This document shows, one piece after another, positions 19,434 through 44,863 of a stretch of 64,000 nucleotides of DNA. A program made the position numbers and the translations under genes. Location: contig JAQSCO010000057.1 of the NCBI GenBank assembly GCA_029945445.1, positions 108,985 to 172,984 on the forward strand, read 5' to 3'. Under the pieces are notes generated by a model, which was given only the letters and a program-made list of their open reading frames with translations, was not told the origin of the DNA and ran no database searches. The number at the start of each line of letters is the position of its first letter. The stretch's first letter is position 1. The DNA comes from Lacunisphaera sp. Its GTDB lineage: Bacteria > Verrucomicrobiota > Verrucomicrobiia > Opitutales > Opitutaceae.

Positions 19434-19463
19434 TGGAGGGCCCGTCAGGAGACCGGCCCTCCA
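19434..19463. repeat. Short TGGAGGG-type inverted repeat
   Basis: TGGAGGG and CCCTCCA enclose a hairpin GGCCCGTC/GACCGGCC with one mismatch. It is the shortest member of a family also seen at 38184, 42645 and 43877, and lies eight bases downstream of the holA stop. Confidence 0.6.
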
Positions 19464-19471
19464 AAAATCCC

Positions 19472-26454: not shown

Positions 26455-26591
26455 CCACTTCGCGGCCCGGCCGGCGGTTGCCTGGATTGTTTTACACGCC
26501 GTTCATGCTTTTGTCTCTCAATCGGGCCTTTCTTGTCCTAAGCTTTTCCCTCGCGGTGCGTATTATCCCCACAATCCCTTCCATCAATACC

Positions 26592-29100: not shown

Positions 29101-29258
29101 ACAATGTGCGCCGGCGCGCTGCCGGCCGGTTGCACGAAGGCGGTGGCCGGCAGCTCCGGCTCGAACTCGGAGCCGGCGGCGAGATCGCTCGCGAGCACAT
29201 CGGCCCAGCGGCGCCGGAGGAAGGCGGTGATTTTCTGGAAAAGATCAGGCAAGGACAT
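29040..29258 (-). CDS. Possible small protein overlapping chelatase and cobA
   Basis: The frame from 29258 gives 72 residues starting MSLPDLFQKITAFLRRRWADVLASDLAAG and containing FEPELPATAFVQPAG. The first 55 residues look protein-like; the rest runs antisense into the chelatase gene for ~60 bases. It starts 14 bases inside the cobA 3' end, as in coupled genes. It may be a real short gene, or chance. Confidence 0.3.
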   Translation of the reverse strand: MSLPDLFQKITAFLRRRWADVLASDLAAGSEFEPELPATAFVQPAGSAPAHIVQASGLAERQRSARISISSG

Positions 29259-30051
29259 GGGCGGAGGAGTTGGCCCGGGCCTGCGACGACAGGTCCGGGA
29301 TGGTGGCGGCGAACGAGGCGAGGCGCACGACCTCGCCCACGATGATGAGCGCGGGTTGGCCGATGAGGCCGACGGAAAGTTTCTCGGCGTCGCGCAGCGA
29401 GCCCGTGAGGATTTTCTGCGTCGGCAGCGAGACCTCGCTGATGACAGCAATCGGCATGTCCTCGGTCATGCCGTGACCGGTCAGGTTGCGGGCGATCTCT
29501 GGCAGGCGGCGCACGCCCATATAGAAGCAGAGGGTCGCGCGGAGCTGCGCGAGCGCGGCCCAGTCGAGGACGTTGGTGTTCGCCGCGCACTGGTGGCCGG
29601 TAACAAAGACGACGGCCGAGGAATGATCGCGGTGCGTCAGCGGCAAACCGGCGGCGGCGCTGGATGCGGTCGCGGCGGTCACGCCCGGCACGATCTCGTA
29701 GGGAATGCCCGCCTCGCGCAGCGCCTGCAACTCCTCGCCGGCGCGGCCGAAGATGAGCGGATCGCCGCCCTTGAGGCGCACGACCTTCTTGCCGGCGCAG
29801 GCCAGCGCAACGAGCAGGGCGTTGATCTGGCTTTGGGCCGCGCTGTGCTGGCCGGCGCGCTTGCCGACGAAGTGTTGTTCGCAGTTCGCCAGGCAGTGGT
29901 TCAGTAACTCCCGGTTGACCAAGTCGTCACACACCACGGCGTCCGCCAGCTGTAAAAGCCTGAGCCCCCGCACCGTGATAAGGTCGGACGCGCCCGGCCC
30001 GGCCCCTACGAGCCAGACAAAACCAGCGCTGGACTCTGTGGAGTCTAACAT
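29245..30051 (-). CDS. cobA: Uroporphyrinogen-III C-methyltransferase
   Basis: A 268-residue SUMT that adds two methyl groups from SAM to uroporphyrinogen III, giving precorrin-2 for sirohaem or B12. The family motifs are VWLVGAGPGASDLITVRG at the N terminus, VRLKGGDPLIFGRAGEE and EIVPGVTAATA. No fused precorrin-2 dehydrogenase (CysG) domain is present, so that step must be provided elsewhere. I use the ATG at 30051; a TTG five codons upstream lies inside a palindrome likely to be regulatory. It is divergent from cysI. Confidence 0.93.
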   Translation of the reverse strand: MLDSTESSAGFVWLVGAGPGASDLITVRGLRLLQLADAVVCDDLVNRELLNHCLANCEQHFVGKRAGQHSAAQSQINALLVALACAGKKVVRLKGGDPLIFGRAGEELQALREAGIPYEIVPGVTAATASSAAAGLPLTHRDHSSAVVFVTGHQCAANTNVLDWAALAQLRATLCFYMGVRRLPEIARNLTGHGMTEDMPIAVISEVSLPTQKILTGSLRDAEKLSVGLIGQPALIIVGEVVRLASFAATIPDLSSQARANSSAHVLA

Positions 30052-30054
30052 AAG

Positions 30055-30077
30055 TTGTTTAGTCAATATGACAACAA
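30055..30077. promoter_or_regulatory. Candidate operator between cobA and cysI
   Basis: A 23-base near-perfect palindrome: TTGTT-TA-GTCA, centre ATA, TGAC-A-ACAA. It lies just upstream of the cobA ATG and 46 bases before the cysI ATG, well placed to control both divergent genes. The Rrf2 regulator encoded at the end of the sulfur operon is the obvious candidate protein. AT-rich composition stands out from the surrounding GC-rich DNA. Confidence 0.55.
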
Positions 30078-30122
30078 TTAGACTTTACCCCGTTTAAGGA
30101 GGAAGCAAGCCTTCTCTTCTTT

Positions 30123-31862
30123 ATGTCAGTCCAGCCATCCGCACCGCCCAGCAAGAACGAGGTCCTCAAGCAGAATGACCCCACCCTAGGGGGCACATTG
30201 GGGGAGACCATGGCTGATTCGACGCTGGCCTGTTTCTCGTCCGACGACGAGCAGTTCCTAAAATTCCACGGTATCTACCAGCAGGACGACCGCGACCGGC
30301 GAAAGACCGGCAAGCAATACATCATGATGATCCGCGCCCGCATCCCGGGCGGCCTCATCCCGCCGGACCAATACCTGGCGTTCGACGATCTCTCGGAGCG
30401 CTACGGCAACCAGACGCTGCGCATCACCTCGCGCCAGTCCTTCCAGTGGCACGGCGTGGTGAAGGACAAGCTCGGCCCGCTGATGAAGGGCCTCAACGAC
30501 GCGCTGTGCACCACGATCGCCGCCTGCGGTGATGTCGCGCGTAACGTCATGGCTCCGTCCACGCCGGCCATGAGCGCGCTCGCCGAGCGCGTGCTCGAGG
30601 ACGCCCGCCGCGTGGACGCCGCGGTGAAGCCGCAGACCGCCGCCTATCATTCCATCTGGATCGACGGCGAGCCGCTGAAGCTTTCGCCGGAAGGAAAGCA
30701 GGCGTTCGAGGACCCGCTCTACGGCAAGACCTACCTGCCCCGGAAATTCAAGATCGCCTTCGCCCTCCCGCCGCTGAACGACACCGACGTCTTCACGAAC
30801 TGCCTCGGCTTCGTGGCGATTCCGGACCCCGCCGAGCCGAGCCGCGTGCTGGGCTACAACGTGCTGGTCGGCGGCGGCCTCGGTATGAGCCACGGCAACA
30901 AGGAAACCTTCCCGCGCACCGCCGACGTGCTGGGTTTCATCGCGCCGGAGGAAATCGTCGCCGTCACCAAGGCCGTGCTCACCGCTTACCGCGACTCCGG
31001 CGACCGCACGAACCGCAAACACGCGCGCCTCAAGTATGTCATCGAGGAGCTTGGCGTGGACTGGTTCCGCGCCGAGGTCGAACAGCGCGCGGGCTTCAAG
31101 CTCGCACCGGCGCGCCCGATGGACTTCACGCACCAGGGCGACCGCTTCGGCTGGCACCAGCAGAGTGACGGCCGCTGGTTCCTCGGCCTCTACGTCGAGA
31201 CCGGCCGCATCAAGGACGTGCCGCAACGCCAGCTGAAGACCGCACTCCGCCGCGTCGTCGCCAAGTTCCGCCCCGAGGTGCGCCTGACTCCTTCGCAAAA
31301 CCTCCTGCTCGCCGGCCTCACCGCCGCGCAGAAGGCCGGCCTCACCGCGCTGCTCGCCGAGCACGGCATCCCGGTGGAAAACCAGGCTGGCGCCATCCGC
31401 CGCGCCTCGATGGCGTGCCCGTCGATGCCCACCTGCGGCCTCGGCCTCGCCGAGAGCGAGCGGGCGCTGCCCGGCATCCTGGACAGCCTTGAGACAGTGC
31501 TCGCCGAGCTCGGGCTCAGCGACGAGGAGATCATCATCCGCATGACCGGCTGCCCGAACGGCTGCGCGCGGCCTTACATGGCCGAGATCGGCTTCGTCGG
31601 GAAGGCGCCGGGCAAATACAACCTCTACCTCGGCGGCAACGCCGGCACCACGCGCCTCAACCGCGAATACCGCGCGAGCGTGAAGACCGAGGACCTCAGC
31701 AAGGAACTTCGCCCCCTGCTGACCCGGTGGAAAAACGAGCGCCGGTCTGGCGAGCGTTTCGGTGACTTTTGTTCGCGGACTGTGTTGCCCGAACAAATAC
31801 CGGTGGGCGCGGCTGGGGATGCCGCGCCCACCACACTCTCCCCCGCGGCCCCTCTGTCATGA
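30123..31862 (+). CDS. cysI: Assimilatory sulfite reductase, haemoprotein subunit
   Basis: The 579-residue protein reduces sulfite to sulfide using a 4Fe-4S cluster coupled to sirohaem. Cluster Cys are C432, C438, C477 and C481 (CPSMPTCGL and GCPNGCARP). The sirohaem/sulfite Arg-Lys regions are visible (RITSRQSFQWHGV, GMSHGNKETFPR). No flavoprotein partner (CysJ) is encoded here, so the electron donor is unknown (ferredoxin is possible). The last ~33 residues are encoded by an inverted-repeat element and look like an added tail. An AAGGAGG lies 20 bases before the ATG, unusually far for a ribosome-binding site. The stop overlaps the cysH start. Confidence 0.95.
   Translation: MSVQPSAPPSKNEVLKQNDPTLGGTLGETMADSTLACFSSDDEQFLKFHGIYQQDDRDRRKTGKQYIMMIRARIPGGLIPPDQYLAFDDLSERYGNQTLRITSRQSFQWHGVVKDKLGPLMKGLNDALCTTIAACGDVARNVMAPSTPAMSALAERVLEDARRVDAAVKPQTAAYHSIWIDGEPLKLSPEGKQAFEDPLYGKTYLPRKFKIAFALPPLNDTDVFTNCLGFVAIPDPAEPSRVLGYNVLVGGGLGMSHGNKETFPRTADVLGFIAPEEIVAVTKAVLTAYRDSGDRTNRKHARLKYVIEELGVDWFRAEVEQRAGFKLAPARPMDFTHQGDRFGWHQQSDGRWFLGLYVETGRIKDVPQRQLKTALRRVVAKFRPEVRLTPSQNLLLAGLTAAQKAGLTALLAEHGIPVENQAGAIRRASMACPSMPTCGLGLAESERALPGILDSLETVLAELGLSDEEIIIRMTGCPNGCARPYMAEIGFVGKAPGKYNLYLGGNAGTTRLNREYRASVKTEDLSKELRPLLTRWKNERRSGERFGDFCSRTVLPEQIPVGAAGDAAPTTLSPAAPLS
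31768..31832. repeat. Double-hairpin element inside the cysI 3' end
   Basis: TTTGTTCG/CGAACAAA (31768-31797) is followed by a perfect 12-bp hairpin GGTGGGCGCGGC/GCCGCGCCCACC (31802-31832, 7-base loop). Both lie inside the cysI reading frame, just before cysH. Confidence 0.65.
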
Positions 31863-32521
31863 TGAACTCCACCGCCCTCCCCCGCTGGAACGCCGAACTG
31901 CGCACCAAGTCGCCGCGGGAGATCGTCCGCTGGGCCGTCGCCCAGGCCGGCGGCCGCGCCGTGGTCTCGACCAACTTTCGCCCCTACGAGGCCGCCATCC
32001 TGCACCTCGCCGTGTCGGTTCAGCCCGACATCCCGGTGCTCTGGGTCGACCACGGCTACAACCGCCCCGCCACCTACCGGCACGCCGAGGAACTCCGCGC
32101 GCGCCTCGGACTCAACCTCAAGCCCTTCCTGCCGCGCCTCACGCCCGCCCACCGCGACGCCCTCCACGGCCCCGTCCTCCCAACGACCGAGGACGAGGCC
32201 GGCCTGAAGAAATTCAGCGTGCTGATGAAGCTCGAGCCTTTCCAGCGCGGCATGCGCGAGCTCGCGCCGACCGTGTGGATCACCGCGTTGCGCCAAGTGC
32301 AGAACCCGAACCGCGCGGGGCTTGATATCGTGTCGCTCGACGAGAACTTCGGCGCGCTCAAGGTCAGTCCGCTCTTTTATGCCACCGACGCCGACCTCGA
32401 GGCCTACCTCGCGGCGCACCGCTTGCCTAACGAGTGGGATTACTTCGATCCGGCCAAGGCCGACGAGAAGCGCGAATGCGGCCTCCACGCCGCGTGGGGC
32501 AAGCAGGCGGTCAGCGCCTGA
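31859..32521 (+). CDS. cysH: Phosphoadenylyl-sulfate (PAPS) reductase
   Basis: A 220-residue thioredoxin-dependent reductase in sulfate assimilation. The P-loop-like region is AVVSTNFRPYEAAIL and the catalytic C-terminal motif is KRECGLH. The paired Cys (CC...CxxC) that bind 4Fe-4S in APS reductases are absent, so the PAPS-specific type is inferred. That requires an APS kinase (CysC), which is not in this window and is not fused to CysN. The start ATG overlaps the cysI stop (ATGA); a second ATG follows directly. Confidence 0.9.
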   Translation: MMNSTALPRWNAELRTKSPREIVRWAVAQAGGRAVVSTNFRPYEAAILHLAVSVQPDIPVLWVDHGYNRPATYRHAEELRARLGLNLKPFLPRLTPAHRDALHGPVLPTTEDEAGLKKFSVLMKLEPFQRGMRELAPTVWITALRQVQNPNRAGLDIVSLDENFGALKVSPLFYATDADLEAYLAAHRLPNEWDYFDPAKADEKRECGLHAAWGKQAVSA

Positions 32522-32562
32522 GTCCTCCGGCCGCGCACCAGGCGACGGCTCCACCATCGACC

Positions 32563-33465
32563 ATGCCTTCCTACCATCTCGACCACCTGCAGCACCTCGA
32601 AACCGAGGCGATCCACATCATGCGCGAGGTCGCCGGCGAATTTGAGCGGCCCGCGCTGCTCTTTTCCGGCGGCAAGGATTCGATCTGCCTCCTGCGCCTC
32701 GCGGAAAAGGCCTTCCGCCCGTCCGACCTGCCGACGCCGCTGCTCAACGTCGACACCGGCCACCATTTCCCCGAGCTGAACGAGTTCCGCGACCGCCGCG
32801 CCAAGCAGCTCGGCGCGAAGCTCATCGTCCGCACCGTCGAGGACGCGATCGCGAAGGGTATCGCCCAGCCCGCGCCGGGCGAGATCAGCCGCAACCAGCT
32901 GCAGATCCCCGTCCTGCTCGCGGCCATCGAGGAGTTTCGTTTCGACTGCTGCATCGGCGGCGCGCGGCGCGACGAGGAGAAGGCCCGCGCGAAGGAGCGC
33001 TTCTTCAGCTTCCGCGACAGCTTCGGCCAGTGGGACCCGAAGAACCAGCGCCCCGAGATCTGGAACCTCTATAACGGCCGCCTGAATCCCGGCGAGAACA
33101 TGCGCGTCTTTCCGCTCAGCAACTGGACGGAGATGGACGTGTGGGAATACATCAAGCGCGAAAAGCTCGAGGTGCCGTCGATCTATTTCAGCCACCGCCG
33201 CTCGGCCGTGCGCCGCGCCGGCCAGTGGCTGCCGGTCAATGATCTCATCCCGCCGCGTCCGAACGAGGAGGTGCGCGAGCTCACCGTCCGCGTCCGCACC
33301 ATCGGCGACATCATCAGCACCGGCCTCGTCGAGTCGCCGGCCGAGGATGTCGATGACATCATCGCCGAGATTGCCGCCGCCCGCGTGACCGAGCGCGGCT
33401 CGCGCGCCGACGACAAGGCCTCCGAGGCCGCCATGGAGGACCGCAAGAAGGCGGGTTATTTCTAA
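32563..33465 (+). CDS. cysD: Sulfate adenylyltransferase subunit 2
   Basis: The 300-residue ATP-sulfurylase catalytic subunit makes APS from ATP and sulfate. The PP-loop is LLFSGGKDSICLLRL; other family segments are VDTGHHFPELNEFRD, CIGGARRDEEKARAKER and VFPLSNWTEMDVWEYI. The start is the ATG at 32563 (MPSYHLDHLQHLETEAIHIMRE), matching the family N terminus. The cysN ATG follows the stop codon without a gap. Confidence 0.96.
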   Translation: MPSYHLDHLQHLETEAIHIMREVAGEFERPALLFSGGKDSICLLRLAEKAFRPSDLPTPLLNVDTGHHFPELNEFRDRRAKQLGAKLIVRTVEDAIAKGIAQPAPGEISRNQLQIPVLLAAIEEFRFDCCIGGARRDEEKARAKERFFSFRDSFGQWDPKNQRPEIWNLYNGRLNPGENMRVFPLSNWTEMDVWEYIKREKLEVPSIYFSHRRSAVRRAGQWLPVNDLIPPRPNEEVRELTVRVRTIGDIISTGLVESPAEDVDDIIAEIAAARVTERGSRADDKASEAAMEDRKKAGYF

Positions 33466-34809
33466 ATGTTCACCGAAGACGCCCTGTCCGCCCCGCCCGT
33501 GACGATCCCCGTCGACATCCTCCGCTTCAACACCTGCGGCAGCGTCGACGACGGCAAGTCCACGCTCATCGGCCGCCTGCTCTACGATTCAAAGTCGCTG
33601 ATGGAGGACCAGCTCGAGGCGCTCGAGCGCTCGGCCGACATCACCGGCGGGGGCCAGATCAATCTCGCCAACCTCACCGACGGCCTCCGCGCCGAGCGCG
33701 AGCAGGGCATCACGATCGACGTCGCCTACCGCTACTTCGCCACGCCACGCCGCAAGTTCATCATCGCGGACACCCCGGGCCACGTCCAATACACGCGCAA
33801 CATGGTGACGGGCGCATCGCTCTCCAACCTTTCCATCGTGCTGGTCGACGCCCGCCTCGGCGTCATCGAGCAGAGTCGCCGCCACACCGCTCTCGCCGCA
33901 CTGCTGCGCATTCCCCACCTCGTCGTCGCCATCAACAAGATGGATCTCGTCGGTTGGAGCGAGGCACGCTTCCACGAGATCCGCGCGCAGTTCGAGGAGT
34001 TCCTGCCGCGCCTCGCCATCAAGGACGTGAAATTTATTCCGCTGAGCGCGCTCAATGGCGACAACGTCGTCGAGCCTTCGGTGCACACGCCGTGGTACGT
34101 GGGCCCGACGCTGCTCGGTCACCTCGAGTCCGTGCACATCGCGAGCGACTGGAACCTCAGCGGCTTCCGTTTCCCCGTGCAGTGGGTCAACCGCCCGCAC
34201 AACCCGAAGGACGCCGCGCTGCACGACTTCCGCGGCTTCAGCGGCCAGATCGCCGGCGGCATCGTCCGCGCCAGCCAGAAGGTCGTGGCGCTCCCCGCCG
34301 GCATCACGACCACCGTGAAGCAGATCTGGACCTACGACGGCCCGGTGCCGGAGGCGTTCTGCCCGCAGTCGGTCACGCTCGTGCTCGAGCATGACATCGA
34401 CATCAGCCGTGGCTCGATGCTCATCGGTCTCGACGACAACCTGCCGGGCGCGAGCAGCGATTTGCAGGCGGAGATTTGTTGGATGCACCCCCGTCCGCTA
34501 CAGAAGGGGAAAAAATATTATCTCAAGCACACGGCGCAGACCGTGCAGGTCGTGGTCGCGGAAATTACGCACCGGCTCAATCTGAGCACCTTTGACGCCG
34601 AGCCGGAACCCGCCGAGCTGGCGGTCAACGATCTCGGTCAGGTCCGCCTGCGCGCGGCGAAGCCGCTCGTATTCGACGGTTACGCGACCAACCGGCTGAC
34701 CGGTTCCTTCATCCTCATCGAGCCGGGCACCAACGCCACGGTCGCAGCCGGCATGCTGCACCCGCCGCGCGAGGTCGTGAAGCCCGAGAACGGCGACTAC
34801 GTCATCTGA
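33466..34809 (+). CDS. cysN: Sulfate adenylyltransferase subunit 1 (GTPase)
   Basis: The 447-residue GTPase drives the CysD reaction. G motifs are present: SVDDGKSTLIGRLLYD (P-loop), DTPGHVQYTRNM (G3) and NKMD (G4), followed by EF-Tu-like beta domains. The length fits CysN alone, with no C-terminal CysC (APS kinase) fusion. Translation is directly linked to cysD. Confidence 0.96.
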   Translation: MFTEDALSAPPVTIPVDILRFNTCGSVDDGKSTLIGRLLYDSKSLMEDQLEALERSADITGGGQINLANLTDGLRAEREQGITIDVAYRYFATPRRKFIIADTPGHVQYTRNMVTGASLSNLSIVLVDARLGVIEQSRRHTALAALLRIPHLVVAINKMDLVGWSEARFHEIRAQFEEFLPRLAIKDVKFIPLSALNGDNVVEPSVHTPWYVGPTLLGHLESVHIASDWNLSGFRFPVQWVNRPHNPKDAALHDFRGFSGQIAGGIVRASQKVVALPAGITTTVKQIWTYDGPVPEAFCPQSVTLVLEHDIDISRGSMLIGLDDNLPGASSDLQAEICWMHPRPLQKGKKYYLKHTAQTVQVVVAEITHRLNLSTFDAEPEPAELAVNDLGQVRLRAAKPLVFDGYATNRLTGSFILIEPGTNATVAAGMLHPPREVVKPENGDYVI

Positions 34810-34872
34810 CGCCGGCCGCCCGGCTGCCAAAAAGGTTGCCCGGTCCGGCCGCGCGGCTAGCTTGCCCTTCCC

Positions 34873-35286
34873 TTGAAGATTTCCGTCAAAGTCGATTATG
34901 CCTGCCGCGTCATGGCGGAGCTCGCGCGGCTGCACGGCTCGGGGCGGCTCGCGCAGATCGAGCATCTGGCGAAGACTGAGGCGGTGCCGGCGAACTTCCT
35001 TGCGCAGATCCTCGGCAAGCTCCGCACGCACGGGCTCATCACCAGCCGCCGCGGTAACCAGGGCGGCTACCTGCTCGCCCGTTCGCCCGAGGAGATTTCA
35101 CTCCACGACATTTTGCTGGCCGTCGAGGGCGGCCACCTCCACCTGAGCGGCAACTTCCAGGGCCGCAGCGGCCGGCGGCTCAAGCAGGTGTGGGCCGAGA
35201 TCAGCGAGACCCTCGAGGAAAAAACCAAAAGCTACACGCTCGATCAACTCCGCACGAAGAACCCGGCGGAGATGTATTATATCTGA
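34873..35286 (+). CDS. Rrf2 family transcriptional regulator (CymR-like)
   Basis: A 137-residue winged-helix regulator starting MKISVKVDYACRVMAELARLHG, with HTH region VPANFLAQILGKLRTHGLITSRRGNQGGYLL. The three Fe-S Cys of IscR/NsrR are absent, pointing to a CymR-like regulator sensing sulfur status. The start codon is TTG. It follows cysN by 63 bases and may bind the palindrome at 30055-30077; this is inference. Confidence 0.88.
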   Translation: MKISVKVDYACRVMAELARLHGSGRLAQIEHLAKTEAVPANFLAQILGKLRTHGLITSRRGNQGGYLLARSPEEISLHDILLAVEGGHLHLSGNFQGRSGRRLKQVWAEISETLEEKTKSYTLDQLRTKNPAEMYYI

Positions 35287-35342: not shown

Positions 35343-36149
35343 TTACTTCTGCTTCAGCGGCAGCATCCATTTCAGCACGTCGGCGATGCGCGCCGCCCAG
35401 GCGTACTCGGTGTGCTCCTTGTCGGGTTCTTCGCGGTAGGCGAGGTCGGCGCCTTCCTTCCAACCCTTGCCGACGAGGATGTCGCGGAACGGGCGGATGC
35501 CTTCCCAGCCTGGCTCGGCCGTGCCCATGTCGAGCCAGAGGCGGACGGCGGATTTCTTGCGCAGCCGCGAAAATTCCTTGAAGACAGTGTGATCGTCCCA
35601 CCACAGCGAGGGGGACATCGCGGCGACGTGGCCGAAGACCCGCGGATACCACAGCGCGAAGTAGAGCGAGACCAGTCCGCCCATCGAGGAGCCGATCACG
35701 CCCGTGTGTCGTGGACCGGGCAGCGTGAGATAGTGCGTGTCGATGAACGGCTTCAGCTCCGTCGCCACGAATTTCGCGTAGCGCTTCGCATCGCCGGTGC
35801 TCGTGCACTTCTCGCCGTCCCAGCCGGAGAACTCCGCCGGAGTCGGCGCGTATTCGTTCATGCGGTTGAAGCCGGTGTTGTAGATGCCGACCATGATCGG
35901 CGCAGCGATCGCGTGCGCGCCGATGAGCTCCCGGGCGCGGTCGCCGGCGTGCCAGGCGTTGCCAAGGAAGGCGGTCAGCGGGTCGAAGATGTTCTGCCCG
36001 TCCTGAAAATAGACGACCGGGTGCCGCCGGCGCATGAGGCCGTAGCCGGGCGGCAGCCACACGACGATGTCGCGCTGGTTGCGCAGCACCCGCGAAAGGA
36101 AGCGGCGGTGCAGACAGAGCGGGGGCTGGGGCTTGGGCGCGGGCGGCAT
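35343..36149 (-). CDS. Esterase of the alpha/beta hydrolase fold
   Basis: A 268-residue putative esterase (esterase D / Fes-like). The nucleophile elbow is GVIGSSMGGLVSLYFALWYP, the acid is probably in LWLDMGTAEPG and the His in KEHTEYAWAARI. RNQRDIVVWLPPGY near the N terminus is typical of the family. No signal peptide is seen from the chosen ATG at 36149. It faces away from the ligase cluster to its right, so membership in that cluster is uncertain. Confidence 0.88.
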   Translation of the reverse strand: MPPAPKPQPPLCLHRRFLSRVLRNQRDIVVWLPPGYGLMRRRHPVVYFQDGQNIFDPLTAFLGNAWHAGDRARELIGAHAIAAPIMVGIYNTGFNRMNEYAPTPAEFSGWDGEKCTSTGDAKRYAKFVATELKPFIDTHYLTLPGPRHTGVIGSSMGGLVSLYFALWYPRVFGHVAAMSPSLWWDDHTVFKEFSRLRKKSAVRLWLDMGTAEPGWEGIRPFRDILVGKGWKEGADLAYREEPDKEHTEYAWAARIADVLKWMLPLKQK

Positions 36150-36219
36150 GACGTTCCGTCGCACGCTGCAAGCCGCCCCGGGCGAAGCCAAGCGGTTTTT
36201 GAAAGGTGGAACTCGACCT

Positions 36220-36384: not shown

Positions 36385-37107
36385 ATGAATGAGCAACATG
36401 TCCGCTGGTATACGCGCCACCTGAGCCGCGATTTCGACATGCTGGTCTTCGGGCATGCGGGCTATCCGGTCATCCTGTTCCCGACCTCGCTCGGCCGCTA
36501 TTATCAGAACAAGGATTTCGGGCTCGTCGGGTCGGTCGCGCACCTGATCGACGCGGGGAAGATCCGGATCTACTGTCCCGATGGCATCGACGCCGAGAGC
36601 TGGTATAACAAGTCCATCAGTCCGGCCGACCGCGTGCGCACGCACCTGGCCTATGAGCGGGTCATCCTGCACGACGTGCTGCCGCTCGCCCAGCGCGAGG
36701 CGGGCCGGCACCAGGTCGCCGTGGCGGGCGCAAGCTTCGGCGGCTACCACGCGGTAAACTTCGCGCTGCGGCACCCCGACCTCACGGGCTATTGCTTCAG
36801 CCTCGGCGGGTCGTTCGACATCCGGCAGTTCCTCGACGGTCATGCCGACGACAACAGCTACTTCAACAATCCCGTCGAATACCTGCCCAACCTCAACGAT
36901 CCGTGGTTCCTCGACCGGCTCCGCGGTATGGGTATCGTGCTCGGCACCGGCGACTGGGATGTCTGCCGCGACCGCAACCTCCACCTCTCCCACCTGCTCC
37001 ACGCGAAGGGTATCCCGCATTTCCTTGATGACCGCAAGTGGTGCGGGCATGATTGGAATTACTGGAGGGACATGTTCCCGCACTACCTGTCCCTGATCAA
37101 CCCCTGA
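36385..37107 (+). CDS. Esterase-like hydrolase at head of ligase cluster
   Basis: A 240-residue alpha/beta hydrolase with nucleophile elbow VAVAGASFGGYHAVNFALRHP, a candidate acid in LGTGDWDVCRDRN and His in WCGHDWNYWRDMFPHYL. The opening MNEQHVRWYTRHLSRDFDMLVFGHAGYPVILFPTSLGRYYQ is distinctive for a group usually annotated as esterase. The start at 36385 is preferred to a frame extension of 22 codons. The ATP-grasp gene follows after seven bases, so it is probably the first gene of that operon. It may hydrolyse an ester or amide of the product. Confidence 0.88.
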   Translation: MNEQHVRWYTRHLSRDFDMLVFGHAGYPVILFPTSLGRYYQNKDFGLVGSVAHLIDAGKIRIYCPDGIDAESWYNKSISPADRVRTHLAYERVILHDVLPLAQREAGRHQVAVAGASFGGYHAVNFALRHPDLTGYCFSLGGSFDIRQFLDGHADDNSYFNNPVEYLPNLNDPWFLDRLRGMGIVLGTGDWDVCRDRNLHLSHLLHAKGIPHFLDDRKWCGHDWNYWRDMFPHYLSLINP

Positions 37108-37114
37108 CCTCCCC

Positions 37115-38089
37115 ATGAAAAAGATCGGCATCCTCCACGGCAAGGAACGCAGCTTCCCCACCGCGCTCATCGAGCGCATCAACGCCCTGAACGAACCCGG
37201 CATCACCGCCGAGGAGGTTGTGATCAACCAGGTCACCCAGGGCGAGCCCACGCCCTACGCCGTCATCCTCGACCGCATCTCGCAGGATGTGCCGTTCTAC
37301 CGCGCCTACCTCAAGAACGCCGTGCTCAACGGCACCGCCGTCGTCAACAACCCGTTCTGGTGGTCGGCCGATGAGAAGTTCTTCAACAACTGCCTCGCGA
37401 CCAAGGTCGGCGTCGCCGTGCCGAAGACCGTCATCCTCCCCTCGAAGGACATGCCGGCCGACTGTTCGGCCGAGTCGTTCTCCAACCTGGCCTACCCGCT
37501 CGATTGGGACGGGATCTTCCACTACATCGGCTGGCCCGCGTATTTCAAACCACACTCGGGCGGCGGCTGGAAGAACGTCTACAAGGTCCGCGACCGCGAC
37601 GAGTTCTTCAAGGCCTACAACGAGACCGGCCAGCTCGTCATGTTGCTGCAATCCGAGGTGCACTTCGACGACTACTACCGCTGCTACTGCATCGGCGGCA
37701 CCGACGTCCGCATCATGCAGTATGAGCCGCGCAACCCGCACCACCTCCGCTACGTCGTGGACCGCCCGCCCGGCTCGCCCGAGCTGCTGGCGCGCATCAC
37801 GCAGGACGTGCTCACGCTCAACCACGCGCTCGGCTACGAGTTCAACACTGTGGAATTCGGCGTGAGCGGCGGCGTGCCCTACGCGATCGACTTCTGCAAC
37901 CCCGCGCCCGATGCCGACCGCAAGTCCGTCGGCGAGGAAAACTTCGCCTGGGTCGTCGAGGCCGCGGCCCAGATGCTCGTCCGCAAGGCCAAGGCAAATA
38001 ACCCGGCGCAGAACAACACCACCTGGGGCGGCTACGTGCAGGGCGCGGTCAAGACCGGCCAGCCCGCCGCGGTGCCGAAGAAAAAATGA
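37115..38089 (+). CDS. ATP-grasp ligase (RimK-like)
   Basis: A 324-residue carboxylate-amine/thiol ligase. ATP-grasp features: the phosphate-binding stretch YFKPHSGGGWKNVYKV with its Lys, the adenine-side LLQSEVHFDDYYRC, and a metal-binding end NTVEFGVSGGVPYAIDFCNPAPDAD (Glu, Asp, Asn). The N-terminal part MKKIGILHGKERSFPTALIERIN is a pre-ATP-grasp Rossmann-like domain. The enzyme should form an amide through an acyl-phosphate. The substrate is unknown; the neighbours (YbdK-like ligase, aminopeptidase) suggest a peptide-like product. Confidence 0.9.
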   Translation: MKKIGILHGKERSFPTALIERINALNEPGITAEEVVINQVTQGEPTPYAVILDRISQDVPFYRAYLKNAVLNGTAVVNNPFWWSADEKFFNNCLATKVGVAVPKTVILPSKDMPADCSAESFSNLAYPLDWDGIFHYIGWPAYFKPHSGGGWKNVYKVRDRDEFFKAYNETGQLVMLLQSEVHFDDYYRCYCIGGTDVRIMQYEPRNPHHLRYVVDRPPGSPELLARITQDVLTLNHALGYEFNTVEFGVSGGVPYAIDFCNPAPDADRKSVGEENFAWVVEAAAQMLVRKAKANNPAQNNTTWGGYVQGAVKTGQPAAVPKKK

Positions 38090-38109
38090 AACCGTCGTCG
38101 CCATATTTC

Positions 38110-38164
38110 TGGCGGGCTCGCGGCCCTGCGCACCGTCATGGCCCGCAGGGACGCGGGCCCGCCA
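38110..38164. repeat. TGGCGGG-type inverted repeat after ATP-grasp gene
   Basis: TGGCGGG/CCCGCCA ends enclose one long imperfect hairpin (CCCTGCG/CGCAGGG core). Its reverse complement shares CGCGTCCCTGCGGGCCA with the element at 43877, showing common origin. Confidence 0.65.
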
Positions 38165-38183
38165 AACTTCACCAACCCCTCAT

Positions 38184-38235
38184 TGGAGGGCCCGTCTCCT
38201 GACGGGCCGCGGCCCACCAGGAGGTGGGCCCTCCA
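38184..38235. repeat. TGGAGGG-type three-stem element before ybdK-like gene
   Basis: TGGAGG...CTCCA closes two perfect hairpins, GCCCGTC/GACGGGC (loop TCCT) and GGCCCACC/GGTGGGCC (loop AGGA). It ends 16 bases before the YbdK-like start codon, so it lies within the presumed operon and could affect transcript processing or translation. Confidence 0.75.
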
Positions 38236-38251
38236 TTAATCACCTTCGCCC

Positions 38252-39370
38252 ATGGCCGCCAAGAAAGCCCACAAGTTCACCCTCGGCATCGAGGAGGAGT
38301 TCCAGATCGTCGACCCGGTCTCGCGTGAGCTGAAGTCGCACATCGAGGAGATCATCGAGGGCGGCAAGATCATCCTGAAGGAACGCGTGCGGCCCGAGCT
38401 GCACCAGTCGGTCGTCGAGGTCGGCACCGACATCTGTGAAAATATTGCCGCGGCCCGCAAGTCCGTGACGGGCCTGCGCCGCGATCTCGCGGGTCTCGCC
38501 CAGAAATCCAACCTCCGCATCGCCGCCGCCGGCACACACCCGTTCTCGCACTGGATCGACCAGAAGATCTCCAGCGGCGAGCGCTACCAGGGCGTGCTGA
38601 ACGATCTCCAGCAGATCGCGCGCGCCAACCTCATCTTCGGCCTCCACGTCCACGTCGGTATGCCCGACCGCGAGACGGCCATCCAGCTGCAGAACACCGC
38701 GCGCTATTTCCTGCCGCACATCTTCGCGCTCTCGACCAACTCGCCGTTCTGGGTCGGCCGCAACACCGGCTTCGCGTCGTATCGCTTGCAGGTTTTCCAG
38801 CGCTTCCCGCGCACCGGCATCCCCGACCTCTTCGACTCCGTCAACGAATTCGATGACTACGTCAGCCTGCTCATCAAGACCGGGTGCATCGACAACGCCA
38901 AAAAAATCTGGTGGGACATCCGCCTCCACCCGATTTTCCACACGCTGGAGTTTCGCGTCTGCGATATCCCGATGCGCGTCGACGAGACCATCTGTCTCGC
39001 CGCCATCATGCAGGCGGTCATCGCCAAGCTCTACAAGCTGCACCGGAAAAACCTCGGTTTCCGCACCTATCGCGCCCGTCTCATCAACGAAAACCGCTGG
39101 CGCGCCTCCCGCTACGGCATCAACGGCAAGATGATCGATTTCGGCAAATCGGAGGAGGTGCCGACCCGCGACCTCATCACCGAGCTGCTCGAATTCATTG
39201 ATGACGTGGTGGATGACCTTGGCTCCCGCGAGGAGGTCGACTACGTCCACCAGATCCTCCGTCTCGGCACCGGCGCCGACCGGCAGGTTGAGGTTTACAA
39301 CCGCACGAAAGATCTCAAGCAAGTCGTCGACTACATTATTTCCGAAACCCACCACGGCCTTGATCTCTGA
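38252..39370 (+). CDS. Carboxylate-amine ligase, YbdK/GCS2 family
   Basis: A 372-residue glutamine-synthetase-fold amidoligase, the same length as E. coli YbdK, which makes gamma-glutamyl-type bonds weakly. Marker segments: FTLGIEEEFQIVDP (metal-binding Glu cluster), RPELHQSVVEVGTDIC, AAGTHPFSHW, GLHVHVGMPDRETAI and FHTLEFRVCDIPMRVDET. It is flanked by two ATP-grasp-type proteins and an aminopeptidase. The physiological amine and acid are unknown. Confidence 0.93.
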   Translation: MAAKKAHKFTLGIEEEFQIVDPVSRELKSHIEEIIEGGKIILKERVRPELHQSVVEVGTDICENIAAARKSVTGLRRDLAGLAQKSNLRIAAAGTHPFSHWIDQKISSGERYQGVLNDLQQIARANLIFGLHVHVGMPDRETAIQLQNTARYFLPHIFALSTNSPFWVGRNTGFASYRLQVFQRFPRTGIPDLFDSVNEFDDYVSLLIKTGCIDNAKKIWWDIRLHPIFHTLEFRVCDIPMRVDETICLAAIMQAVIAKLYKLHRKNLGFRTYRARLINENRWRASRYGINGKMIDFGKSEEVPTRDLITELLEFIDDVVDDLGSREEVDYVHQILRLGTGADRQVEVYNRTKDLKQVVDYIISETHHGLDL

Positions 39371-39392
39371 TATTCCGCCCGCCCACGCCTCC

Positions 39393-40415
39393 ATGCCGCA
39401 AAGCGCCTCGCTGCCCACCACCTTCGATCCCGCACTGACCCAGGGCGCCGCCAACGCCATCCACGTCTGCCTGAAGCTGCAGCCGACCGAGCGGATGACG
39501 CTGATCACGGACCAAGCCAGCGCCGAGATCGCCGCCGCGCTCGTCAACGAGATCGAGCAGACCGGCGCCGACTACCACGTCTTCGTCCTCGAGGAATACG
39601 GCGCCCGCCCGCACCGTGACATGCCGCGCCCCGTCCTCGACGACCTCGCCCAATCGCAGGTCAGCATCTACGCCTGCCTCACCCAGACCGGCGAGCTCCG
39701 CACCCGCATGCAGATGATGGACGTCATCAACCCGCACCGCATCCGGCACGGGCACATGGTGAACATCAACAAGCAGATCATGGTCGAGGGCATGCGCGCC
39801 GACTTCGTCGAGGTCGATCGCCTCTCGCAGAAGCTCATTGAGAAATGCCGCCGCGCCCAGCGCGTCACCTGCAAGACCGCCGCCGGCACCGACTACGTCG
39901 CCGAGCTCTCGCCCAAGCTCAACTGGGTGAAGACCGCCGGCCTCATCACGCCCGCGAAATGGGGCAACCTGCCTGGCGGCGAGATCTTCACCTCGCCCTT
40001 CAACTCCAACGGCCGCTTCGTCGTCGACGGCGTCGTCGGCGACTACCTCTGCCAGAAATACGGCGACATCGGGGCGACGCCCCTGACGATCGACATCAAG
40101 GACAACCGCATCGCCAGCCTCGCGTGCGCGAACCAGGAGTTGCTCGAAGAATTCGACAAATATTGCCACACGGACGAGAACTCGGACCGCGTCGGCGAAT
40201 TCGCCATCGGCACCAATCTCGCCTGCACGCGCATCATCGGCCACATCCTGCAGGACGAGAAGCTCCCCGGCATCCACATCGCCTTCGGTCACCCCTATAG
40301 CGAACACACCGGCCAGGCCTGGAAGAGCACGACCCACATCGACTGCGTCGGTCGTTTCTTCGACATCTGGCTCGACGACGAACAAGTCATGGCGCAGGGA
40401 ACGTTTTTGATCTGA
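39393..40415 (+). CDS. M29-like aminopeptidase
   Basis: A 340-residue metallopeptidase of the aminopeptidase T/PepS type, somewhat shorter than the usual ~410. Candidate metal ligands lie in LPGGEIFTSP, VGEFAIGTN and the end segment HIAFGHPYSEHTGQAWKSTTHID. The ATG at 39393 is used; the open frame upstream overlaps the ligase gene. No signal peptide, so it acts in the cytoplasm. In this operon it may trim or recycle the peptide made by the ligases. Confidence 0.88.
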   Translation: MPQSASLPTTFDPALTQGAANAIHVCLKLQPTERMTLITDQASAEIAAALVNEIEQTGADYHVFVLEEYGARPHRDMPRPVLDDLAQSQVSIYACLTQTGELRTRMQMMDVINPHRIRHGHMVNINKQIMVEGMRADFVEVDRLSQKLIEKCRRAQRVTCKTAAGTDYVAELSPKLNWVKTAGLITPAKWGNLPGGEIFTSPFNSNGRFVVDGVVGDYLCQKYGDIGATPLTIDIKDNRIASLACANQELLEEFDKYCHTDENSDRVGEFAIGTNLACTRIIGHILQDEKLPGIHIAFGHPYSEHTGQAWKSTTHIDCVGRFFDIWLDDEQVMAQGTFLI

Positions 40416-40431
40416 CCGGCGGCCTTCCGCG

Positions 40432-40731
40432 ATGAGCTACACGCTGCGGCCAGAAGTCGTCTCAGAAGCTCAGCGCATTTTTTCCCCCGAACTGACCGGG
40501 ATCGTCCTGGAAAAACTGGCCGCGACCCAACTCCCCTTGGACCAGGGCGGGCCGCCGCCGCGCGTGCATATTGCCGTGCTTTGGCTTTCCCAAGGGAATC
40601 TCCCGAAACTCGAGGACGCGTTGGCGGTCGCCGCGACCGACTGGCGCGATTCGCTGGTCGCCGCCGGGCTGGCCCACGCCAACTGGCGCTCCATTCTCGC
40701 CAGCAAGGGCATCGACACCACACACTGGTAG
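40432..40731 (+). CDS. Hypothetical protein in ligase cluster, 99 aa
   Basis: A soluble 99-residue protein starting MSYTLRPEVVSEAQRIFSPELTGIVLEKL and ending RSILASKGIDTTHW. It has mixed alpha/beta composition and no Cys or membrane segment. The layout (helix, VHIAVLWLSQGN strand, helix LEDALAVAATDWRDSLVAAGL) suggests a compact single domain. It sits 16 bases after the aminopeptidase and 19 bases before the second ATP-grasp-like gene, so it is firmly part of the operon. No family is recognised. Confidence 0.8.
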   Translation: MSYTLRPEVVSEAQRIFSPELTGIVLEKLAATQLPLDQGGPPPRVHIAVLWLSQGNLPKLEDALAVAATDWRDSLVAAGLAHANWRSILASKGIDTTHW

Positions 40732-40750
40732 ACCCAACCCTCCTGCCGCC

Positions 40751-41944
40751 ATGATTCCCGCCCTCCGCCAGCGCTACAATGCCGCGTTCACCGCGCCGCG
40801 CTACGCGGCGTTCACGGCGGAGCTGAAAACCGCGATGTATTGGCCGGTGGATTTCCGCGTCGCGGAATCGCCGCTGTTCCTTGACGAGGCCACGACGCGC
40901 GAGTTGGTGAAGGCGGCCGACGACATTGTCCGCCAGCTGGCCACGCCCGCCTTCCGTCAACACGCGATGACTGCCATTCCCACGGGACTCACCGTGCCGG
41001 AGGAAACGGAGTGGCCGCACTTCCTCGCGGTGGACTTCGCGCTCTGCCACGACGCTTCCGGCCGGGTCCTGCCACAGCTGATCGAGTTGCAGGGCTTCCC
41101 GACCGTCGCCTGCTGGCAGGCGTTGCTGGCGCAAACTTATCGGAAACACTTCCCGGAAATCCCCACGGACTTCACGCCCTATTTCGGCGGACTCGAACAG
41201 GAGGGCTACCTCAACGACCTGCGCCACGCGATGCTCGGCGAGTGTCTGCCGGAGAACACCGTCCTGCTCGAAATCACGCCCGCGGAACAGAAGACCCGCA
41301 TCGATTTCGCGTGCACGCACTCCTACCTTAATGTCCGGCCGATGTGCGTCACGAAGGTCATCAAGCGCGGCCGGCAGCTTTTCTATCCGTCCGGCGGCCG
41401 CGAGGTGCGCATCGAGCGCATTTTTAACCGCGTCATCTTCGACGAGCTGCTGCGCAAAAAACCGCCGATGAAGTTCAGCTTCTTCGACGACCTCGACGTG
41501 CAGTGGGCCGGCCACCCCAACTGGTATTTCCGCATCAGCAAACACACGCTGCCTTTCCTCAAGAGCCCCTACGTGCCGGATTGTCGTTTCGTCAGCGAAC
41601 TCGGCGGCAACATTCCCGCCGACCTGGAGAACTACGTCCTCAAACCGCTCTACTCCTTCGCCGGCCTCGGCGTGGATATCGCGCCGACGCGCGAAAAAAT
41701 CGCCGCCGTGGCAAAGCCCGCCGAGTGGCTGCTCCAGCGCAAGGTCACCTACGCGCCGGTGATGGAGACGCCCGACGGCCCGGCCAAGGCGGAGATCCGC
41801 CTCATTTTCGCCGGCGACGGCACCGGGATGCCGAAGCTGCTCAACCAGCTTGTGCGTTTGACGAAAGGCGCGATGCACGGCGTGGATTTCAACAAGGGCC
41901 GCACCTGGGTCGGCGCCAGCGCGGGCTTCCATCCCGCGATTTAA
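40751..41944 (+). CDS. Divergent ATP-grasp-like protein, 397 aa
   Basis: A soluble protein whose C-terminal half looks like an ATP-grasp core: NYVLKPLYSFAGLGVDIAP (Lys and Gly-rich loop), EWLLQRKVTYAPVM and AEIRLIFAGD. The N-terminal half has QLIELQGFPTVACWQALLAQTY, reminiscent of circularly permuted ATP-grasp enzymes in which the metal site precedes the nucleotide loop. This assignment is by motif and is less certain than for the first ATP-grasp protein. The start ATG at 40751 follows the 99-residue gene. It likely adds another residue to the same product. Confidence 0.75.
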   Translation: MIPALRQRYNAAFTAPRYAAFTAELKTAMYWPVDFRVAESPLFLDEATTRELVKAADDIVRQLATPAFRQHAMTAIPTGLTVPEETEWPHFLAVDFALCHDASGRVLPQLIELQGFPTVACWQALLAQTYRKHFPEIPTDFTPYFGGLEQEGYLNDLRHAMLGECLPENTVLLEITPAEQKTRIDFACTHSYLNVRPMCVTKVIKRGRQLFYPSGGREVRIERIFNRVIFDELLRKKPPMKFSFFDDLDVQWAGHPNWYFRISKHTLPFLKSPYVPDCRFVSELGGNIPADLENYVLKPLYSFAGLGVDIAPTREKIAAVAKPAEWLLQRKVTYAPVMETPDGPAKAEIRLIFAGDGTGMPKLLNQLVRLTKGAMHGVDFNKGRTWVGASAGFHPAI

Positions 41945-42066
41945 TTGGCGGGCTCTGCTTCTGCTGCGCCGCGATCGGACCAGACTTTACCCTGACAAAT
42001 CTGCCGCGGACGCTGACCCCGCCTCGCCACTTGCATTGCGGCCTGATGCGGCTAGCTTGCCGTCCC

Positions 42067-42585
42067 ATGAAAGTTACCCGCCTCCTCGCCCTCCTCACCA
42101 CCATGTCACTCTTCTCTGTGTTTGCCTCCGCCGATCCGCTCAAGGTCGGCGACGCGGCCCCCGCCGCCACCGGCGTGACCGACACCGGCGCCAAGCTCGC
42201 GCTGGCCGATGTCTATAAAAAGCAGCCCTACACGCTCGTCTATTTCTATCCTAAGGCCGATACCCCGGGCTGCACCAAGCAGGGCTGCTCGCTCCGCGAC
42301 AGCTATGAGGCGCTGACCAAGAAGGGCGTCGCCGTCATCGGTGTCAGCCACGACGACGTCGCCGCGCAGGCGGCCTTCAAGGCCAAATACAACCTGCCGT
42401 TCACGCTCATCGCCGACATGGACAAGGCCTTCATGAACGCCTTCGGCGTCCCGTCCGCGATGCCGATGACCGACATGGCCCACCGCTCGGCCTACCTCAT
42501 CAAGGACGGCAAGATCGTCTACGCCGACTACAAAGGCACGACCGACAAGCAGGCCGACGCCATCCTCGCTGAGCTGAGCAAGTAA
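42067..42585 (+). CDS. Exported peroxiredoxin (Bcp/PrxQ type)
   Basis: A 172-residue thiol peroxidase with a signal peptide (LLALLTTMSLFSVFASA). The active site is YPKADTPGCTKQGCSLRD, with peroxidatic C69 and a second Cys five residues later (C74), as in PrxQ/Bcp enzymes. IGVSHDDVAAQAAFKAKYNLPF is also typical. A periplasmic location is predicted. It has its own terminator and may not belong to the ligase operon. Confidence 0.93.
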   Translation: MKVTRLLALLTTMSLFSVFASADPLKVGDAAPAATGVTDTGAKLALADVYKKQPYTLVYFYPKADTPGCTKQGCSLRDSYEALTKKGVAVIGVSHDDVAAQAAFKAKYNLPFTLIADMDKAFMNAFGVPSAMPMTDMAHRSAYLIKDGKIVYADYKGTTDKQADAILAELSK

Positions 42586-43870: not shown

Positions 43871-43876
43871 TTTGTC

Positions 43877-43928
43877 TGGAGGGCTCGCGTCCCTGCGGGC
43901 CAGGGCCTGCACAGAGGCGGGCCCTCCA
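43877..43928. repeat. TGGAGGG-type three-stem element between convergent genes
   Basis: TGGAGGG/CCCTCCA ends enclose GCTCGC/GCGGGC and GGGCCTG/CGGGCCC hairpins (wobble pairs included). It fills the gap between the peptidase and the kinase-like gene, which converge. Confidence 0.72.
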
Positions 43929-43930
43929 AA

Positions 43931-44863
43931 CTATAGTTCGTCGTCGTTGCCAGCGGCGAAGATCTCCGCGCGTGGATCACGCCGTGCCCGCTCGATCCAG
44001 TCGCGAAACAGCGTCATCTGCGCCAGCCACTCCGCCGGCAGCGGCGCGGCGACGAGGTCAATCACTCGCCAGGCGCCAGACTCGTCGGCCACGACATTGC
44101 GGTCGTGCGTGTCCGCCACGAGCCACGGCATGTCATCCAAAAACGCCAGACGTGGATGGTCGCGGTCGGCGCGGAGGAAGCGCGAGGGGATCGGGATGAG
44201 CCGCGCGGGATCGAGGCCCGACATGTCGGTCTTTTCCGGCAGCAGCCGGCCGAAGGTTTGCTTGGCCACAAGGATACCCTCGGGCGTGATGCCGGTGATC
44301 TCGGTCGGAATGCCGAACTGGTGCGTGAGCCGGAGTTTTTCGAAAAGCATCCGGTAGCTGCCCGGCACGGCGGTGGCGTTGAGCAGGCCCTCCTCGCCCC
44401 GCCGGAAGGCGAACGTCGCGCCGACGTCGCCGCCTTCGCGGAACAGGAAGAATTTGTAGACCGAGTGGGCGGCATCGACGAAAGCCAGCGCCTCCACGCC
44501 GCCGCCGATGCGCCGCAGTTTTACACTGTCGACCTCGAAGGGATCCTCAGCTTCCGAACTGAAGCCGAAAGTCTCGAACGGGATTACCGGCAAGTGCCGC
44601 CGGAACGCCCGGATGGCGTCGCCAAAAGCCGCCCACTCGGGCCCGGTGGACTCCAGCAGGCTTACTTCGTCTTCCGCGACGAGGATGAGATCGCGGTCTT
44701 TATCTGCTCGGATACTGCATTGGGCCGCTGTTTGGCCCAGGTGATCGAACGCCCGAAGTCGTTGCCGGTGACCGTCCAGAACAGCGGCCCATCCTTCCGG
44801 GCCCGGGAGGCGGGCGCCGGTGAGGCAGGTTGGCCTGCCGGAGAAGGGGTCGGTGTTTTGCAT
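43931..44863 (-). CDS. Kinase-like protein of unknown function, 310 aa
   Basis: The C-terminal half contains WLVADTHDRNVVADESGAWRVIDLVAAPLP, which resembles the catalytic loop (D-x4-N) and metal-binding Asp of kinase-fold proteins, similar to domains called polyvalent protein kinase in databases. The middle part (RRIGGGVEALAFVDAAHSVYKFFLFREGG) would carry the nucleotide-binding Lys. The N-terminal part is unrecognised. The start ATG at 44863 is chosen; the frame is open for 50 codons upstream but looks non-coding. The identification is tentative. Confidence 0.7.
   Translation of the reverse strand: MQNTDPFSGRPTCLTGARLPGPEGWAAVLDGHRQRLRAFDHLGQTAAQCSIRADKDRDLILVAEDEVSLLESTGPEWAAFGDAIRAFRRHLPVIPFETFGFSSEAEDPFEVDSVKLRRIGGGVEALAFVDAAHSVYKFFLFREGGDVGATFAFRRGEEGLLNATAVPGSYRMLFEKLRLTHQFGIPTEITGITPEGILVAKQTFGRLLPEKTDMSGLDPARLIPIPSRFLRADRDHPRLAFLDDMPWLVADTHDRNVVADESGAWRVIDLVAAPLPAEWLAQMTLFRDWIERARRDPRAEIFAAGNDDEL

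Follow-up and report, generated by a model that had tools for sequence, protein, structure and literature searches.

The subject of this report is a group of ligase genes in a 64,000-nucleotide stretch of DNA from Lacunisphaera sp. (Opitutaceae, Verrucomicrobiota; assembly GCA_029945445.1, contig JAQSCO010000057.1, positions 108,985 to 172,984 of the forward strand), which is referred to here, at its full length, as the window. The source genome comprises 4.17 Mb in 66 contigs, and the nearest named records that carry ligase A of this group are from Opitutaceae. Six plus-strand reading frames were confirmed in the order E, A, Y, M, a 99-residue open reading frame (ORF) and G, separated by 7, 162, 22, 16 and 19 nucleotides (nt), respectively, i.e., they are as closely spaced as stated in an earlier reading of the sequence (the original prediction). 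The features are the following:

E2, 35343-36149, minus strand: alpha/beta hydrolase of family PF00756 with a GSSMG nucleophile motif, divergently transcribed
E, 36385-37107, plus strand: small esterase-like hydrolase of family PF00756 with a GASFG motif, an optional member
A, 37115-38089, plus strand: RimK-like ATP-grasp ligase
A-Y gap, 38110-38235, no strand: palindromic interspersed repeats, not a conserved operon element
Y, 38252-39370, plus strand: YbdK/GCS2 carboxylate-amine ligase
M, 39393-40415, plus strand: M29-like metallopeptidase, PF02073
99-residue ORF, 40432-40731, plus strand: no family match; a lineage-specific insert outside the set
G, 40751-41944, plus strand: ATP-grasp ligase with the predicted fold of glutathione synthetase, glutathionylspermidine synthetase and YgiC

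Searches of Pfam and NCBIfam named E, Y (strongly) and M, gave a weak match for A, and returned no match for G or the 99-residue ORF. The labels esterase-like, YbdK/GCS2 and M29-like that the original prediction had attached to E, Y and M agree with the matches to PF00756, NF010039 and PF02073, and its naming of A and G as ATP-grasp proteins is upheld by predicted structures. As a list of members it was partly right: the ligases stand, the 99-residue orphan, which is without relatives, does not, and the divergent esterase E2 upstream had been omitted.

Ligase Y scores above the cut-offs of three family models (NF010039, 541 bits vs 371; TIGR02050, 294 vs 176.4; PF04107, 205 vs 21). The GhExE metal/ATP signature, taken as described in the available text of PMC2588565, is present, with near-invariant residues G12, E14 and E16 (at least 97% of 101 rows). 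Y is the only GCS2-type match in the source genome and matches Escherichia coli YbdK (1r8g) at 9.5e-49. The E. coli protein is a weak gamma-glutamylcysteine ligase, the true substrate of which is not known; Y belongs to the same family and retains the signature residues, but its best model is a distinct one, NCBIfam PRK13515, and it sits in an operon.

Ligase A falls far below the cut-off of NCBIfam rimK_fam (E 2.5e-4, 20.5 bits vs 143.4), and phmmer and profile searches of the sequences in the PDB gave weak matches only. A structure model generated with AlphaFold2 from 40 sequences (predicted local distance difference test, pLDDT, 84) has RimK (4iwx) as its best structural match (Z 20.7, root-mean-square deviation 3.0 over 267 residues), while LysX/ArgX give Z 18-19.6 and graspetide ligases about 17-18; the top Foldseek match is a D-Ala-D-Ala ligase (1.9e-13). 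Residues E247, D259 and N262 are invariant among the 40 sequences. According to the model the fold is RimK-like, but the sequence model does not assign A to RimK: RimK, LysX and ArgX have the nearest fold at 11-18% identity, and A is set apart from them by its score far under the NCBIfam cut-off and by its gene context.

Ligase G gave no clear match in phmmer and profile searches of PDB sequences, and its profile could not be aligned globally to YgiC or Gss, a short local match being found to YgiC only. The corresponding AlphaFold2 model (pLDDT 90.7, from 32 sequences) resembles YgiC and YjfC (Z 25.8), Gss (24.8), human glutathione synthetase (24.5), homoglutathione synthetase (24.2) and Cp1B (22.9), with 3n6x as the top Foldseek match (1.1e-14). 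All of the first 26 entries (Z 25.8-19.6) belong to the glutathione synthetase/GspS/YgiC superfamily, as judged by their titles and, for Cp1B, by the classification in the available text of PMC12568646; the next entries are 3k1t at 12.7 and another at 8.2. The predicted structure of G is thus a full-length fold of this superfamily, well above other ATP-grasp proteins. The R-x-D and E-x-N motifs of Gss and YgiC are replaced in G by A-x-D95 and E112-x-Q114; the correspondence was set by motif spacing, not by residue-level structure alignment. D95 and E112 are kept, the arginine is replaced by A, C or Q, and the asparagine by Q (32 of 32 rows). One G match (G017:C1:1768280-1769545) is split into two pieces 87 nt apart within a single open frame of 441 residues, i.e., it carries an in-frame insertion near residue 147, where loci L010 and L018 also have extra residues.

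Scanning contigs with A gave at least 595 pattern matches, of which 576 were confirmed and the best 80 kept; 87 loci were then compared. Verrucomicrobiota loci have the order A-Y-M-G, often with E in front, many Bacteroidota loci and one Ignavibacterium contig have A-Y-x-G, and many Chitinophagaceae loci have A-Y only. The search for the same gene order elsewhere, a check named in the original prediction, was therefore positive in several phyla, and the ligases hold up as a co-inherited set. Among 120 Opitutaceae genomes drawn from a larger group, A was found in 12, and the identical 12 genomes carry Y, M (3.9e-191 or better) and G; beyond these, a weak Y-like match (1.4e-4) was seen in genome G127 and a C-terminal fragment of G in G078. 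Weaker M29 paralogs are near-universal, with any match in 113 of the 120 genomes. Within the genus, Y was found in 7 of 21 genomes, in one of them as a 20-residue end fragment.

The same analysis covered 198 Bacteroidota genomes. Matches to A were kept if better than 1e-60 (four genomes with 4.4e-5 to 8.7e-4 were dropped), those to G if better than 1e-50 (one of 1.2e-5 was dropped), and those to Y were all kept, including two at 35 and 42% identity. With these thresholds A is present in 72 genomes, Y in 62 and G in 60; A and G are shared by 58, A and Y by 58, Y and G by 56, and all three by 54. This co-conservation is far above chance (Fisher p 2e-31 to 2e-37), though the tests are uncorrected for relatedness, which inflates them. 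The exceptions comprise 10 genomes with only A and 2 with only Y, plus pairs that lack the third ligase: A with G in 4, A with Y in 4, and Y with G in 2. Physical linkage is not required for joint occurrence: in 24 of the 58 Bacteroidota genomes with both A and G, the two genes are separated by more than 8 kb or lie on separate contigs; contig breaks may account for some of these cases. Among a separate set of 29 Bacteroidota genomes known to carry A, G was found in 28, one of these a fragment. Culturable Bacteroidota with A, Y and G include Flavihumibacter petaseus, Segetibacter aerophilus, Parafilimonas terrae and Sediminibacterium ginsengisoli.

Where the genes are linked, their order is fixed. 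Among 99 loci with A, 52 have G within 8 kb of A in the stretch fetched (the linked loci), and all 49 of these that hold the three ligases have the order A-Y-G on one strand; the remaining three (L124-L126) read A-T-G, where T is the protein described below, with no Y adjoining A. Six compact loci (L113-L116, L129 and L130) have Y-G gaps of -1 to 9 nt, which suggests translational coupling of Y and G, and A-Y gaps of 7 to 80 nt.

The position occupied by M in the window is a slot with exchangeable content. M matches PF02073 (Peptidase_M29) at 2.9e-14 (53.1 bits vs a cut-off of 27) over residues 155-306 only, and has no match in NCBIfam. Residues E197, E269, H295, H315 and D317 are near-invariant among 34 rows, some of which are overlapping copies of the same locus; the first three of these putative metal ligands align with AmpS, and H315 and D317 are assigned on the basis of the M29 motif. 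Peptidase activity of M is likely but not certain because a 2,5-dihydroxypyridine dioxygenase matches nearly as well (0.006) as AmpS (0.004). Elsewhere the slot holds T, a protein of about 270-280 residues that is class-I glutamine amidotransferase (GATase-I)-like (PF00117; three such proteins were scanned), with residues C103, H206 and E208 kept in 38 rows. Among the 52 linked loci, 27 have T, 15 have M, 10 have neither, and none has both. M and T are unrelated hydrolases with retained catalytic residues that take the place of one another in the slot, and the presence of two unrelated hydrolase-type proteins there suggests that the task of the slot is hydrolysis of an amide.

The esterases are more loosely attached. 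E2 matches PF00756 at 1.2e-29 (stretch 35343-36218). Of 99 loci examined, 3 were too short to test; in 70 of the other 96, a search with six seeds placed a divergent homolog upstream of A, or upstream of E in loci that have it. Five of the six seeds were taken from loci in this very set, and those loci are bound to match. When the window protein is the sole query, the count is 50, i.e., all 14 Verrucomicrobiota loci (L008-L021) and 36 others, the latter homologs having 24-35% identity, often over part of the length. Common ancestry of E2 at this place is likely, though not proven; a few families make up most of the loci. E (PF00756, 5.8e-11) is optional, being present in 34 of the 52 linked loci and in 9 of the 14 Verrucomicrobiota loci. 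At L116, L129 and L130 its homologs have lost the nucleophile serine and could perhaps be non-catalytic partners.

The 99-residue ORF, listed as a cluster member in the original prediction, is a lineage-specific insert and not part of the set. It has no match besides itself in the source genome, no protein relative in the 87 loci, none in viral contigs, and no DNA relative in 132 loci besides copies of this place; as a candidate precursor or accessory gene it was dropped on these grounds. It may be a real gene (third-position GC content 0.79 vs 0.86-0.93 in its neighbors). The M-G gap in which it lies spans 23 to 1557 nt in other loci and is an insertion-prone spot: L011, L017 and L018 contain there a different gene of about 120 residues, of the PDDEXK_3 nuclease superfamily (L018 copy scanned). 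The A-Y gap (38110-38235) contains an inverted repeat and imperfect palindromic interspersed repeats, with partial copies at 43874-43932 and 19439-19464 and also just after A in L009, L010 and L013. It was dropped as a candidate regulatory element, as such repeats recur elsewhere in the window and in relatives. A promoter scan gave no sigma-70-like site (0.7 expected); terminator-like sites number 9 vs 4.7 expected, one of them, 41920-41938, falling where G ends.

Phylogenies based on 100 rows of A and 54 rows of G place the Opitutaceae in one fully supported group. In the G tree its closest neighbors are two further carriers of M, L064 and L120 (100/96); in the A tree the Opitutaceae first join the main Bacteroidota rows (84/98), and L064 and L120 branch next (83/98). 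L131, also with M, is remote in both trees, on a long branch. In all 10 Opitutaceae genomes fetched, the 19 kb upstream include a homolog of the window gene at 26478, and several have counterparts of the 42-47 kb genes on the downstream side. One acquisition followed by many losses fits the Opitutaceae, and transfer between phyla is likely. A phage or plasmid origin was dropped, as A had no tblastn match in plasmids and G none in phages.

Other neighbors vary. Clustering of neighboring genes, judged by eye, revealed no transporter, carrier protein or precursor gene that recurs across lineages. Some lineages possibly have a third ATP-grasp ligase, a protein of about 403 residues with a sub-threshold Pfam ATP-grasp match (8e-5; L127 protein scanned), which is located upstream of E in L127 (5396-6607) and L128, and downstream of G on the opposite strand in L124. 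Four Flavihumibacter loci (L023, L036, L061 and L062) have an amidohydrolase before T (L023 copy scanned) and a cupin-like protein, recognized by eye, after G. The window itself contains an assimilatory sulfate reduction run at 29245-35286 (SUMT, CysI, CysH, CysD, CysN and an Rrf2/CymR-like regulator). Besides the window, just L009, L011/L137 (one genome) and L135 have this run linked to the set, and it is not in the fetched upstream flanks of L139, L141 and L143-L147; it would suit a thiol product, but was dropped as an argument for one because the linkage is limited to a few close relatives. Downstream of G, at 42034-42585, lies a peroxiredoxin gene (AhpC-TSA), which would likewise suit a thiol; homologs 51-77% identical are found on the downstream side in several Opitutaceae loci.

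From the observed gene families, folds, co-inheritance, gene order and slot exchange, we propose that the genes serve one shared pathway that makes an intracellular, amide-linked small molecule by a logic like that of glutathione synthesis, i.e., with neither ribosome nor nonribosomal peptide synthetase. We give this shared pathway a probability of about one half; its single common product and the class, substrates and order of steps outlined below are inferred. The frequent dispersal of the genes, and the absence of a transporter common to different lineages, suggest that the product is intracellular, and the enzyme families that it is amide-linked and gamma-glutamyl-like. Y would activate the gamma-carboxylate of glutamate, or of a like acid, and couple it to an amino acid; G would couple the C-terminal carboxylate of the Y product to a further amine (an amino acid or a polyamine); and A, being RimK-like, would add another residue, probably an acidic one. 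The slot hydrolase (M29 here, amidotransferase-like elsewhere), together with E2 and E, would serve to recycle the product, to deprotect it, or to hydrolyze its esters or thioesters. The original prediction held that such a set is hard to explain by primary metabolism, which is doubtful, as Y and a ligase of glutathione synthetase fold correspond to the enzyme logic of glutathione synthesis.

A narrower and more tentative version, which we consider rather unlikely, specifies the product as a new glutathione-like cofactor (a low-molecular-weight thiol or a peptidyl-polyamine) of Bacteroidota, Ignavibacteriota and Opitutaceae. Here, the YbdK-type ligase would form a gamma-glutamyl dipeptide, and the altered-site enzyme of glutathione synthetase fold, together with the RimK-like ligase, would complete the product. 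For Verrucomicrobia, a 2018 survey, in its available text, documents or predicts no low-molecular-weight thiol (PMC6282198).

Several observations weigh against the pathway as proposed. The protein closest to A in fold, RimK, acts on a protein substrate. Phylogeny is not corrected for in the co-occurrence test, and the 10 of 72 Bacteroidota genomes that have A without Y and G, plus the partial sets, imply that the pathway is modular or that A has a separate role. The changed arginine and asparagine of G may indicate another substrate or altered catalysis; in Cp1B, replacement of each of the four R-x-D/E-x-N motif residues by alanine abolished or significantly attenuated activity, according to the available text of PMC12568646. 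According to the same 2018 survey (PMC6282198), bacillithiols occur or are predicted in members of the Bacteroidetes, so that a second thiol could be redundant and the thiol version is less needed there. The clustering of neighbors was based on simple ORF calls, by which small or divergent genes could be missed. Finally, Chitinophagaceae and close relatives have a TonB-plug protein in the vicinity of A (22 of 80 loci) and a sigma factor of the extracytoplasmic function type in that of Y (18 of 80; a single copy of either protein was scanned), and a MalK-like ATP-binding cassette (ABC) ATPase is near the set in 3 of 20 loci. Such neighbors make it harder to state outright that the set comes without a transporter or regulator, but none crosses lineages, and further genes common to those Chitinophagaceae loci are taken as local synteny.

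An alternative role for the ligases would be modification of a protein or a peptide tag, with A and either Y or G adding residues or a tag to a cellular protein, and the peptidases taking them off again. RimK is not only the top structural match of A (Z 20.7) but has also been crystallized with RpsF (5zk6), and a ligase paired with a peptidase resembles a reversible tag, the pupylation ligase being of the GCS2 superfamily according to the available text of PMC2588565. We nevertheless regard this explanation as unlikely: no small tag gene recurs beside the set, with ORFs under 80-90 residues left out of the clustering, the 99-residue ORF is not conserved, and G resembles small-molecule ligases. 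Stand-alone amide ligases also act in natural product pathways, e.g., Cp1B, which has the fold of G, in the synthesis of E-64 (available text of PMC12568646), and a secreted natural product made by amide ligases is what the title of the original prediction implies. The TonB and sigma-factor neighbors led us to raise the odds of such a product a little, and the MalK-like ATPase points the same way, but it remains decidedly unlikely. None of these neighbors recurs across lineages, the genes are dispersed in 24 of 58 genomes and widespread in Bacteroidota, and they have a settled chromosomal place in Opitutaceae, downstream of the 26478 homolog in all 10 genomes fetched; a distribution so broad, and in part without linkage, is more reminiscent of a cofactor pathway.

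PuuA and PuuD are a ligase of glutamine synthetase (GS) fold and a GATase-I hydrolase that work as a pair, and the adjoining Y and T could by analogy form a catabolic route in which Y glutamylates an amine and T later removes the glutamate. This is improbable, since such a route leaves two ATP-grasp ligases and the 10 of 52 loci with neither T nor M unexplained, and no amine oxidase or aldehyde dehydrogenase was recognized by eye among the recurring neighbors, most of which were not scanned against a family library. That the genes are unrelated housekeeping genes, neighbors by inheritance only, would agree with the partly syntenic flanks and the single Opitutaceae group in the trees. It is very improbable given that the genes co-occur when unlinked, have an all-or-none, patchy distribution, and keep the same order in several phyla. 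The least probable explanation is a cluster for a graspetide-type ribosomally synthesized and post-translationally modified peptide, in which A or G would be the macrocyclase and the 99-residue ORF the precursor. The graspetide ligases PsnB, AMdnB and MdnC are among the Foldseek matches of A, but RimK scores above PsnB and MdnC, the ORF is found in this genome only, A, Y and G in the six compact loci lie too close together (gaps of -1 to 80 nt) to accommodate a precursor gene, and no small gene of at least 80-90 residues recurs across lineages (shorter ORFs were outside the clustering). That no precursor gene is conserved already largely refutes this explanation.

The proposed small-molecule pathway has partial counterparts among known systems. 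Glutathione biosynthesis (GshA/GCS2 and glutathione synthetase) likewise combines a GCS2 ligase with a ligase of the eukaryotic glutathione synthetase fold, but the set described here adds a RimK-like ligase, the peptidase slot and the esterases, and the motif residues of G are changed. The bacterial domain GSH-S_ATP (PF02955) was not found in the one source genome; as a control the same model matched 9 of 14 genomes, 8 of them over the cut-off. The peptide-spermidine ligases Gss and YgiC/YjfC have the nearest full-length fold to G (Z 22.7-25.8), but are only 12-15% identical to it, with A-x-D/E-x-Q in G for R-x-D/E-x-N; Gss also pairs an amide-forming ligase with a hydrolase, which here is a separate M29 or GATase-like protein. 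Clusters of the same general kind, which combine ligases of the ATP-grasp and GS folds with structurally unrelated peptidases, are reported in the catalog of predicted amidoligase-peptidase clusters by Iyer et al. (2009; PMID 20023723), which may already include this exact set. Titles and abstracts among the literature matches listed contained no description of the gene set and assigned no product to it.

All three ligases are found in about a quarter of the sampled Bacteroidota and in a patchy tenth of the sampled Opitutaceae. Should the product prove to be a cofactor that stays in the cell, bacteria common in soil and fresh water would have a metabolite that still lacks a name, and if that cofactor is a thiol, it could be the first low-molecular-weight thiol for the Verrucomicrobiota that carry the set.

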